This document shows, one piece after another, positions 1 through 23,226 of a DNA stretch of 26,602 nt. The DNA is from a virus. Positions within the stretch are counted from its first letter, which is position 1; the number at the start of each line of letters is the position of its first letter. The DNA lies in the IMG/VR virus record IMGVR_UViG_3300025809_000106, positions 1 to 26,602 of that record, one strand, 5' to 3'. The position numbers were made by a program, and so were the translations under genes. The notes beneath the pieces were generated by a model. That model did no database searches, was not told the origin of the DNA, and saw only the letters and a list, made by a program, of their open reading frames with translations.

Positions 1-633
1 AGAAATTAAAATGCCTAATGGCCAAAGAATTTTACCCATAAGTTTTGAAATAGGAGCCAAAGTGCTACCTATACCACGTACTGAACCACCAAAAAATTTA
101 GTTACTGATGCTCCTATCTTAGCACCTGGTCCTAAGAAATAAGCACTTAATGCAGTACCAACTACAGTTAAAGGACGAAGAAAAGACTTAATTTGGATAC
201 CAAGCCTAGGTATTAATGTTTTAAAGTTAGTTTTAAACTTACTCTTTGTTTCTTCAATTATATCACCAATCTTTGTTGTAAATCCAGTAAGACCATTAAG
301 CTTCTTAATAAGAGGTAATTCCCAACCACGTAACCCTACCATAGTTAAACCTAGTGCACTAATACCAGCAAGAAATGTTCCTAGCTTTCCGGCTAAACCC
401 ATTAAACCAAATAAACCAACATTAAACTTATCACCACCACTATTTCCATCAATCTTAGTAGCTTTGGCAGGCTTGTCTGATTTCTCGGACTTACTTTCTC
501 GTTCTTTCTCAAGGGCATCTAATCGTGCACGCTCTTGAGTTAAGAACCATTGTTTAAAGTTCCTATTGAGATTAGCAGTCTCTGTATTGTTCTTATGTAA
601 TTGCTTTACTACATCTTCGAGATTAGTTGCCAT
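1..633 (-). CDS. Putative tail tape-measure / tail-hub protein, N-terminal 211 residues (cut by window edge)
   Basis: The frame starts at ATG 633-631 and stays open to base 1, so the C-terminus lies outside the window. A GC-rich ribosome site (AAGG..GGA) precedes the ATG. Residues 1-60 are charged and helical (MATNLEDVVKQLHKNN..., then a Lys/Glu/Ser-rich stretch). Residues 70-103 form a Gly-rich hydrophobic segment (FNVGLFGLMGLAGKLG), with further hydrophobic stretches at about 150-170 and 195-210. Such helical proteins with hydrophobic patches lie just downstream of tail-assembly chaperone genes and set tail length. The start overlaps the gp51-like frame by 11 bases, again as expected for chaperone and tape measure. 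The identity is inferred from position and composition; no family motif was recognised. It could instead be another hub or structural protein. Confidence 0.6.
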   Translation of the reverse strand, partial: MATNLEDVVKQLHKNNTETANLNRNFKQWFLTQERARLDALEKERESKSEKSDKPAKATKIDGNSGGDKFNVGLFGLMGLAGKLGTFLAGISALGLTMVGLRGWELPLIKKLNGLTGFTTKIGDIIEETKSKFKTNFKTLIPRLGIQIKSFLRPLTVVGTALSAYFLGPGAKIGASVTKFFGGSVRGIGSTLAPISKLMGKILWPLGILIS

Positions 634-814
634 TGTTCCGCCTTTTGGTTTCTTCTTCTTGTTCTTTCAAATGCGTTTCAAGCATTGTTATATAAACTTC
701 TTTTTCCCATGGTATTAAACTGTCTATCTCATTCAAACTATAGTTATGGTGTTGCATTAAAGCAAAGTTATTTCTATAGTAATTAATTATACTATTATGA
801 GACAGACATACTAG
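623..814 (-). CDS. gp51-like / 'T-part' tail-assembly chaperone extension, probably made by -1 frameshift from gp26
   Basis: This 63-codon frame runs from the slippery heptamer at the end of gp26 to a TAA at 625-623. It lies exactly in the -1 frame of gp26 with no stop between. It reads LVCLSHNSIINYYRNN, then MQHHNYSLNEIDSLIPWEKE, then VYITMLETHLKEQEEETKRR. The pattern of an aromatic/His start, a 'IPWEK..Y..ML..H' helix and a charged Glu/Lys/Arg end resembles the small gp51 proteins of marine T4-like phages and the T part of GT chaperones. The only useful internal ATG (757-755) would give 44 residues and has no Shine-Dalgarno sequence. A fusion with gp26 would be 301 residues, with base 814 read twice. 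The open frame is seen directly; the frameshift and the role in loading the tape measure are inference. Confidence 0.78.
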   Translation of the reverse strand, partial: LVCLSHNSIINYYRNNFALMQHHNYSLNEIDSLIPWEKEVYITMLETHLKEQEEETKRRNNGN

Positions 815-1527
815 AAAAAATCTTGCATACCACTTAGTGTCATTTCATTATCTTTATTACAACTATGACAAACAAATTTAACATCATGTTTAAGTGTTGG
901 CATATCTTCCATATATTCTTTAATGGCATTAAGATCACTAGTATTCATAGAGTTAATAAAGTTATCTTGGTCAACTTTACTTTCACCAGCAAAGATAATT
1001 CTTTCTTCATCAGTAACCACTGTCTTAATACACATCTTAATCATATCAAATGTTGATTCAGAGCTTGATTTACCAGCTGTAGTCTTTGATTCATTTACTA
1101 CACTATTATAAGTAGGCCATTGTAGCTCTAATGATATATCAGAGTTTAATTCAATAACAGATCCTTCTAAGCTCATATTACCTTTTACATTAATATTATC
1201 AATTGGTATTGATACTTCATTAGATTCTTCACATTGACCACAAGCTAATGATAATTTAACATTTTCTCCAACTGATCTTGATCTTAGTTGTGTAAACATA
1301 AATTCAATATCAAATGTTGTTAGCTTAGATGTGTTTAATTCACCTTCGGCACAAGCTTCTATAGTGTCAACAATAGATGATAAAATCTGTGTTTCATCTT
1401 TTGATTCCATAGCAAGTAAAAGAACCTTTTCTTCCTTAACTAGAAAGGGCCTAAATCTAATCTTTTTCTTTGTAGAAGGTATGATCAATTCATACTTGGG
1501 TTGGTCGTTTAGTTTCGGTAAAGCCAT
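811..1527 (-). CDS. gp26: Baseplate hub assembly protein gp26 (T4_baseplate family), probable tail-assembly chaperone 'G' part
   Basis: This 238-residue protein opens MALPKLNDQPKYELIIPSTK and matches the T4_baseplate/gp26 pattern. A short beta N-terminus leads to 'IRFRPFLVKEEKVLLLAMES', then a helical region with 'TTFDIEFMFTQLRSRSVGE', a CxxC pair (C96, C99), a beta region, and a second CxxC pair near the end (C220, C223). The four cysteines could bind zinc. The family size is about 210-240 residues. The start is ATG 1527 with GGAG nine bases upstream. In T4 this protein is needed for hub assembly and is not a major virion part. Here it follows a tube-fold gene by 12 bases and precedes the gp51-like frame, to which it is probably joined by -1 frameshift. 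The family call is strong; zinc binding and the chaperone role are inferred. Confidence 0.85.
   Translation of the reverse strand: MALPKLNDQPKYELIIPSTKKKIRFRPFLVKEEKVLLLAMESKDETQILSSIVDTIEACAEGELNTSKLTTFDIEFMFTQLRSRSVGENVKLSLACGQCEESNEVSIPIDNINVKGNMSLEGSVIELNSDISLELQWPTYNSVVNESKTTAGKSSSESTFDMIKMCIKTVVTDEERIIFAGESKVDQDNFINSMNTSDLNAIKEYMEDMPTLKHDVKFVCHSCNKDNEMTLSGMQDFF
814..820 (-). promoter_or_regulatory. Candidate -1 ribosomal frameshift site T TTT TTC at the end of gp26
   Basis: On the minus strand the last gp26 codons read GAT TTT TTC TAG. The heptamer T TTT TTC fits the X XXY YYZ slippery rule in the correct frame, one codon before the stop. tRNA-Phe can re-pair on TTT TTT after slipping back one base, and the next codons (CTA GTA TGT) enter the gp51-like frame. 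Phage P2 uses the closely similar T TTT TTG for its tail-chaperone frameshift. No strong stimulatory structure sits at the usual distance; a 6-bp stem lies 18 bases downstream. Confidence 0.75.
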
Positions 1528-21453: not shown

Positions 21454-23226
21454 ATGGCAAGAACACACGTAAATGTAACAGATCATATTTTAGATATGAA
21501 GAACAAAGTCAACGAAATCTCATATGATGTCGGTGACATAGCTCTTATATCAACATCGGGACAAGATAGTGATGTAGTTCAAGCTATTAACTCACTTGAC
21601 TCAGATATTGGTGGAATTGCTAATCTTACAACAATAGACAAGTCTAGTATTAAAGCGGCTATCAATGAGCTAGATGCTGAGATTGGTGCAGATACTCTAA
21701 CAACTAGTGCATCTACAGTAAAAGGTGCTATTAATGAACATGAAGTTCAAATCAATAATACAGATAGTGATATTGGTACTAGAACTAATCTAACTACAGA
21801 TGCAGATCAAAACCTTGTAGTTGCTATAAATGAAGTAGATACTAATGCGAATACCGCAAATGCAACCGCAAATGCAAATACAGTTAAGCTTGGTACAATC
21901 ACATCTGGTGCTATGGGCACTTCTGCTGGTACAGTAGGTCCAGCTATAAGCGAACTTCATACCGAAATAACATCCGCTACATCAAATATAGGCGCTTTAA
22001 ATTCATTAACCACAACAAACAAAAGTAATTTAGTTGCAGCTGTTAGTGAAGTAAACGGCTTACTTATAGATTCGGCTATGATTAAAAATATATTCAGTGC
22101 CACTAATACGGGAACTGGTTATGGTGCACTTACATATGGTAACAATGGTGTTTATTCACTGGCCAAAGTAACTAATACTAATATCAGAAGTGCTATATCT
22201 GCAGGCGAAGGTATAGACATTGCAAGTGGTGTTATCTCAGGTGAGCTTGCTTCTTATACTAATATAGGTATTGCAAAATTTGACTCAGATGGTTTCACAG
22301 TTAATAATGGCGAAGTCTTTATTAAAGCAAATGGTATTTCAGCCACTCAAATTTTAGATGGTGCTGTTACTACTGTTAAAATAGCAGACAATGCGGTCAC
22401 TACTGCTAAGATTTTAAATGGTAATGTTACTACTGCTAAAATAGTAGACAATGCGGTTACTGCTGGTAAGATTTTAAATGGTAATGTTACTACTGTTAAA
22501 ATAGCAGACGATGCTGTAACATACGCAAAGTTACAAAACTTAGTAACAGCTAATAGAGTATTAGGATCAACTAGTACTGGATTAATAGGCGAGACACAAG
22601 TACAGACTGCAATGATAGCAACTAATGCGGTCACTACTGCTAAGATTTTAAATAGTAATGTTACTACTGCTAAAATAGCAGATGTTGCTGTTACAGCTGC
22701 CAAGATAGCAACTAATGCTGTTACAGCTACTAAAATTTCATCAAGTGCAGTAACTACAGATAAGATAGCAGCTGATGCTGTAACATATGCTAAACTACAA
22801 AACTTAGTAACAGCTAATAGAGTATTAGGATCAACTTCAACTGGAGTAATAGGTGAGACTCTAATACAAAATGCAATGATTGCTCCAGATGCAGTAACTG
22901 GTAGTAAGATACCTGATAATGCTATTAACTCAGAACACTATGCAGCAGGCTCAATTGATCCAGAACATCTTGCAAGTAATGCAGTAACGGAAATTAAGAT
23001 TGCTAGTAATGCTGTTACTTCTGGTAAGATTGCAGCAGATGCTGTTAATGGGACAAAGATTGCTGATAATGCAATTAACTCTGAGCATTATGCAGCTGGT
23101 TCAATTGATAATGAACATATTGCTAATGATGCGGTTGGTGCAGATGAATTAAAAAGTGTTGTTTCTTTAATAATATATAACAGTGCAGGTACAGCATTAA
23201 AGACATTGTATGGTGCAGGAAGCTAA
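21454..23226 (+). CDS. Long repetitive tail-fibre protein
   Basis: The protein has 590 residues. Residues 1-200 contain repeated 'SDIG...LTT..K..I..AINE.' units, which look like alternating helix and turn in a trimeric shaft. Residues about 298-430 and 440-560 are made of ten-residue units of the form NAVTTAKIAD, the repeat typical of phage and bacterial fibre shafts. An 88-residue block containing 'YAKLQNLVTANRVLGSTSTG' occurs twice (starting near residues 353 and 441), and 'NAINSEHYAAGSID' also occurs twice (near 490 and 540). The C-terminal tip is short ('SLIIYNSAGTALKTLYGAGS'). The stop codon of the upstream gene ends at the base before this ATG. It is probably an adsorption fibre; the receptor is unknown. 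The repeats make it prone to length change by recombination. Confidence 0.85.
   Translation: MARTHVNVTDHILDMKNKVNEISYDVGDIALISTSGQDSDVVQAINSLDSDIGGIANLTTIDKSSIKAAINELDAEIGADTLTTSASTVKGAINEHEVQINNTDSDIGTRTNLTTDADQNLVVAINEVDTNANTANATANANTVKLGTITSGAMGTSAGTVGPAISELHTEITSATSNIGALNSLTTTNKSNLVAAVSEVNGLLIDSAMIKNIFSATNTGTGYGALTYGNNGVYSLAKVTNTNIRSAISAGEGIDIASGVISGELASYTNIGIAKFDSDGFTVNNGEVFIKANGISATQILDGAVTTVKIADNAVTTAKILNGNVTTAKIVDNAVTAGKILNGNVTTVKIADDAVTYAKLQNLVTANRVLGSTSTGLIGETQVQTAMIATNAVTTAKILNSNVTTAKIADVAVTAAKIATNAVTATKISSSAVTTDKIAADAVTYAKLQNLVTANRVLGSTSTGVIGETLIQNAMIAPDAVTGSKIPDNAINSEHYAAGSIDPEHLASNAVTEIKIASNAVTSGKIAADAVNGTKIADNAINSEHYAAGSIDNEHIANDAVGADELKSVVSLIIYNSAGTALKTLYGAGS
22510..22894 (+). 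repeat. Duplicated block within the fibre gene, 264-base period
   Basis: The stretch from 22510 to about 22630 recurs at 22774 to about 22894, exactly 264 bases (88 codons) later. A 40-base core is identical (22533-22572 and 22797-22836), while the flanks have drifted mostly at third positions. It is an in-frame duplication that lengthens the fibre. Confidence 0.85.

Follow-up and report, generated by a model that had tools for sequence, protein, structure and literature searches.

In phage lambda, the slippery heptamer is G_GGA_AAG, which is unlike the one described here, and the E/E+E' frameshift site of phage P2 is T_TTT_TTG. As for T4-like phages, their tail assembly chaperone genes were reportedly identified by Vladimirov, Gautam and Davidson (Virology 2022, doi 10.1016/j.virol.2021.11.003). 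A 2016 review described the G-T frameshift as conserved in long-tailed phages 'except T4' (PMC5009743). In passages citing Vladimirov et al., some T4-like phages are stated to have a short gene together with a long, fused one (PMC10885494), and poly-T slip sites are mentioned as known in T4-like TAC-N genes (PMC12846349). Moreover, gp26 and gp51 are already annotated as tape measure assembly chaperones in the record of Acinetobacter phage Konradin.

The window analysed here, i.e., the whole stretch of 26,602 nucleotides of viral DNA (IMG/VR record IMGVR_UViG_3300025809_000106, positions 1 to 26,602), carries a gp26-like gene followed by a small open frame in the -1 phase. Judging from sequence comparison, the two very probably constitute a single tail assembly chaperone gene, from which a short and a long form would be produced by -1 programmed ribosomal frameshifting. 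The features of the locus are as follows.

811..1527, minus strand: gp26-like gene, predicted short chaperone form (TAC-N / G-like), 238 aa; matches PF12322 and phrog_150 and is kept in close IMG/VR loci
813..811, minus strand: TAG stop codon of the gp26-like gene
814..820, minus strand: candidate slippery heptamer T_TTT_TTC in gp26 phase; T_TTT_TTN in 109/109 distinct relatives, and the sole in-phase case in the main genes of the window
623..814, minus strand: -1 frame, 63-residue C-terminal T domain; matches phrog_634 and the last 50 columns of phrog_150, and is open in all relatives
625..623, minus strand: TAA stop codon of the T frame
623..1527, minus strand: predicted frameshift product, long form (TAC-NC / GT-like), 238 + 63 = 301 aa; supported by profile colinearity with T4 gp51
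776..795, minus strand: weak hairpin, a possible stimulator, spaced about 19-38 nt from the heptamer on its 3' side; averaged over relatives, the fold z-score reaches its minimum immediately 3' of the heptamer
1..633, minus strand: start of a tape-measure-like gene (211 aa in the window), so called by position and composition

On the minus strand, the gp26-like gene ends with ATG CAA GAT TTT TTC TAG, and the -1 frame, translated from base 814 (which would be read twice in the frameshift product), runs for 63 codons as LVCLSHNSIINYYRNNFALMQHHNYSLNEIDSLIPWEKEVYITMLETHLKEQEEETKRRNNGN*. Shortly 5' of the heptamer the -1 frame is closed by a TGA, after which it reads NDTKWYAR-FF, and at its other end it overlaps the next gene, whose ATG lies at 633, by 11 bases. 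No ATG, GTG or TTG was found in the -1 frame of the window ahead of the FALMQHH Met, which lies about 20 codons into the frame, and no ribosome-binding-like sequence precedes the ATG of that Met. The 23 main ORFs of the window comprise 8,582 codon positions, and T_TTT_TTN occurs in phase at a single one of them, the end of gp26. An earlier note, made from the letters of this DNA alone, had reported the in-phase heptamer, the length of the open -1 frame up to its TAA, the overlap with the tape-measure-like gene and the lack, in the small frame, of a start codon with a ribosome site, and all four observations were reproduced.

By the proposed mechanism, most ribosomes would stop at the TAG and release the 238-residue short form, comparable to lambda gpG, while a minority, with tRNA-Phe on the TTT and TTC of the heptamer, would slip back one base, because in the -1 frame each of the two tRNAs again has a TTT with which it can pair. 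The slipped ribosomes would read on to produce the 301-residue long form, comparable to lambda gpGT, which would carry the T domain. If lambda is taken as a guide, the short form may coat the tape measure protein encoded by the next gene, a few molecules of the long form may recruit tail tube subunits, and both forms would leave before the tail is completed. Both the slippage and its frequency are inferred, as are the partners that the products bind.

The distribution of this arrangement was examined in related loci, where one profile for each of the two parts was searched against every stop-to-stop segment of the three forward frames, so that the T domain was located with no assumption made on frame. 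Of 144 loci, 140 yielded a T domain. Relative to gp26, it lies in the -1 frame in 139 of these; the single exception is T4, in which the gp26-part and T-part profiles both match one ORF, gp51. After duplicates and four Ackermannviridae were dropped, 109 distinct sequences were compared, with T-region identity going down to about 17%. The earlier note had suggested aligning the gp26 3' ends of related marine T4-like phages; here the heptamer is present and in phase in every one of the 109, as TTTTTTT (57), TTTTTTC (44), TTTTTTA (7) or TTTTTTG (1). The first heptamer codon is always TTT, and TTC is used in 258 of the 998 other gp26 Phe codons (26%); the second varies between F and L and always starts with TT. 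Elsewhere within the gp26 frames of these relatives, in-phase T_TTT_TTN occurs at 11 of 25,060 positions. The arrangement is kept in P-SSM2, KVP40-type phi-pp2, Aeromonas Ah1, Stenotrophomonas Ps15, Rhizobium LG08, Sinorhizobium phiM19, S-PM2, Mosig, C48C1 and OC, and all close IMG/VR relatives spanning the site retain the heptamer, its phase and the open -1 frame. Taken as a -1 frameshift that joins gp26 with the small frame in a G/GT manner, the interpretation of the earlier note is well supported at sequence level, since heptamer, phase and open frame are found in all relatives tested outside Ackermannviridae.

Since the conserved element is a run of six to seven, sometimes eight, T, slippage during transcription of the T6/T7 run could also yield nearly the same two proteins, a possibility we regard as very unlikely. 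Six T are short for slippage of RNA polymerase, and in about half of the relatives T_TTT_TT is followed by C, A or G. In addition, the run is always set to the codons as T|TTT|TTN, which is needed for tandem tRNA re-pairing but not for RNA polymerase, although shared ancestry weakens this point.

Frameshift stimulation by downstream RNA structure may contribute at some of the loci. A strong hairpin lies 6 nt 3' of the heptamer in eight P-SSM2-type sequences, and the hairpin of the window itself is weak. In P-SSM2 (L051:2515-2560) and seven similar loci, this is a long hairpin, AGTATGGCTCA/TGAGTCATACT, placed within the usual stimulator spacing of 5-9 nt; in a second group of relatives a hairpin begins about 20 nt after the heptamer instead. 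A downstream structure by covariation is not claimed, because pairing was only slightly above that of shuffled controls, and an Rfam search of the region returned nothing.

The -1 frame is under protein-coding selection. Its first 48 codons contain no stop in any of the 109 relatives, while the same region has on average 5.9 stops per sequence in the 0 frame and 5.0 in the +1 frame, and codon position 3 takes 55% of the substitutions in the -1 phase, compared with 58% in real gp26. A coding frame might also be translated separately, and many cyanophage records do annotate the small frame as a gene of its own (gp51) with its own start; an ATG lies near the beginning of the small frame in some relatives, including the annotated gp51 of P-SSM2 and S-PM2, and a TAATG overlap is present in Aglimvirinae. 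We consider this slightly less probable again than transcriptional slippage. No ATG, GTG or TTG is found ahead of residue 10 after FF, i.e., ahead of the conserved region, in 54 of the 109 relatives, no ATG in 83, and in 29 a stop codon of the -1 frame abuts TTT TTT; separate translation of the T domain therefore cannot be general. An open coding -1 frame without a start of its own is thus true of the window and strictly true of half of the relatives. A separate gene would also leave the invariant in-phase heptamer unexplained, and T4 has both parts fused. Finally, a one-base sequencing or assembly error could split one gene in this way in a single genome, but an arrangement common to 139 loci, which come from numerous separate assemblies and isolates, excludes it for practical purposes.

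In profile searches, the 0-frame protein matched PF12322 (T4_baseplate; E=1.5e-55, residues 10-238) and phrog_150 (E=2e-57), and the small frame matched phrog_634, 'baseplate hub assembly catalyst' (E=5e-26). Pfam searches with the T domain gave chance matches only, and sequence searches for solved-structure relatives of gp26 or the T domain found none. An AlphaFold model of gp26 reached a pLDDT of 86.8, and a fold search with it against the PDB gave no significant match, with the HK97 tail assembly chaperone 2OB9 at E=2.9 and a probability of 0.35.

In the window, P-SSM2, KVP40-type phages, Ah1, Ps15 and OC, the gene that immediately follows the chaperone locus is long and tape-measure-like. 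The 211-aa piece of this gene in the window has no profile match above noise, and the gene at the equivalent place in Ochrobactrum phage OC matches tape-measure profiles weakly; by its place and character, together with this match in a relative, we take the next gene as tape-measure-like. In phage C48C1 (L143:3391-4869), the gene directly after the chaperone locus matches a peptidase profile, and therefore an enzymatic domain may be part of the tape measure in that phage. Elsewhere in the window, positions 21454-23226 encode a 590-residue protein with repeated NAVTTAKI-type segments, whose probable identity is a tail fibre or a structural repeat protein.

Profile comparison was also used to relate the locus to T4. 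Residues 13-245 of T4 gp51 (249 aa, compared together with its Konradin and DK-13 homologues) align with the frameshift fusion (E=1.7e-16), covering fusion columns 25-283, whereas T4 gp26 covers only columns 15-239 and aligns with the unshifted part alone (E=3e-26). T4 gp26 and gp51 are themselves paralogous (E=3e-11), and the negative controls gp25, gp27, uvsY, rnlB and gp29 of T4 gave nothing in the same comparison. Similarly, phrog_150 covers residues 3-248 of the 249 of T4 gp51 and 5-208 of T4 gp26, while PF12322 covers 1-201 of gp51, leaving a 48-residue T tail. Therefore, T4 has two paralogous genes for what would be the two frameshift products of the window lineage. T4 gp28 was considered as a third paralogue and rejected (best profile comparison E=0.006, 6% probability).

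In T4, gp26 and gp51 are separate genes, as the earlier note had stated; T4-type phages have no frameshift here. The note's equation of the small frame with gp51 has to be corrected: judged by these alignments, the frame is the C-terminal T part only, and it is T4 gp51 that is the whole GT-like protein. Its proposal of G and GT products holds as a reading, while the explanation of the hub-assembly roles of gp26 and gp51 that it drew from this has reportedly been published already (Vladimirov et al.). The gp26 and gp51 genes are divergent in T4, DK-13, Konradin and Thanatos-1. In RB43 (L161:2501-3794), two PF12322 genes, of 247 and 185 aa, form a tandem on the same strand, followed by a gp25-sized gene, and this pair is possibly a transitional stage that links the frameshift locus with the divergent order seen in T4. 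In the tree, the gp26 clade is separate from the gp51 clade, and long branches make the deeper joins unsure.

In Ackermannviridae (19 loci, several identical; L053, L138-L140 and L145-L159), the -1 frame likewise encodes the T domain; the site, however, is GAR ATT TTC ATY TAA and contains no X_XXY_YYZ heptamer. The junction is TAATG in Aglimvirinae and TAATT in Kuttervirus and Taipeivirus, and the chaperone locus precedes gp5 and does not adjoin a tape measure gene. One tentative scenario, which we regard as less likely than not, is that the frameshift is ancestral in the T4 superfamily and was replaced once by duplication in T4-type Straboviridae (tandem in RB43, divergent in T4), that KVP40- and Ah1-type Straboviridae kept it, and that Ackermannviridae moved to a third mode. 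Lacking a canonical heptamer, the latter would therefore have to rely on single-tRNA slippage on U_UUC or on stop-start coupling.

These comparisons show that the T4 'exception' is limited to the T4-type branch: the predicted frameshift site is present in related lineages, marine T4-like phages among them, and its two products have their counterparts in T4 gp26 and gp51. The idea of a frameshifted chaperone is itself not new, and the window locus is a further case that is well supported by its sequence. Because Vladimirov et al. 2022, as cited elsewhere, had already identified the T4-like chaperone genes, what is added here is limited to breadth (marine, rhizobial, Vibrio, Aeromonas and Stenotrophomonas phages), the exact site, the correction of widespread 'gp51' labels and the odd case of Ackermannviridae. 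For annotation, gp26 and the small frame should be joined in such genomes.

Compared with known systems, the heptamer of the window belongs to the same class as that of P2, and one relative (L064) has exactly T_TTT_TTG, although the P2 GpE profile did not match the T domain. Similar to lambda gpG/gpGT, the locus would encode a short form and a form extended in the -1 frame, ahead of a tape-measure-like gene, with the ratio presumably controlled by slippage (PMC5009743). The gp26 of the window differs from its lambda counterpart in being larger (238 aa) and having CxxC-type pairs, and the profiles used gave no match to lambda-type chaperone families. In phage Adele (Vandenendeviridae/Andersonviridae; PMC12846349), a small downstream frame that is usually annotated separately likewise follows a conserved T-rich slip motif and has no -1 stops, while the phage families are different and the motif is GTTTTT (PMC12846349). 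The gp26 and gp51 chaperones of T4-like phages belong to the same family as the window locus (PF12322, phrog_150 and phrog_634); T4-type phages use two genes for the two forms, whereas the lineage of the window would obtain both from one gene and a -1 frameshift.
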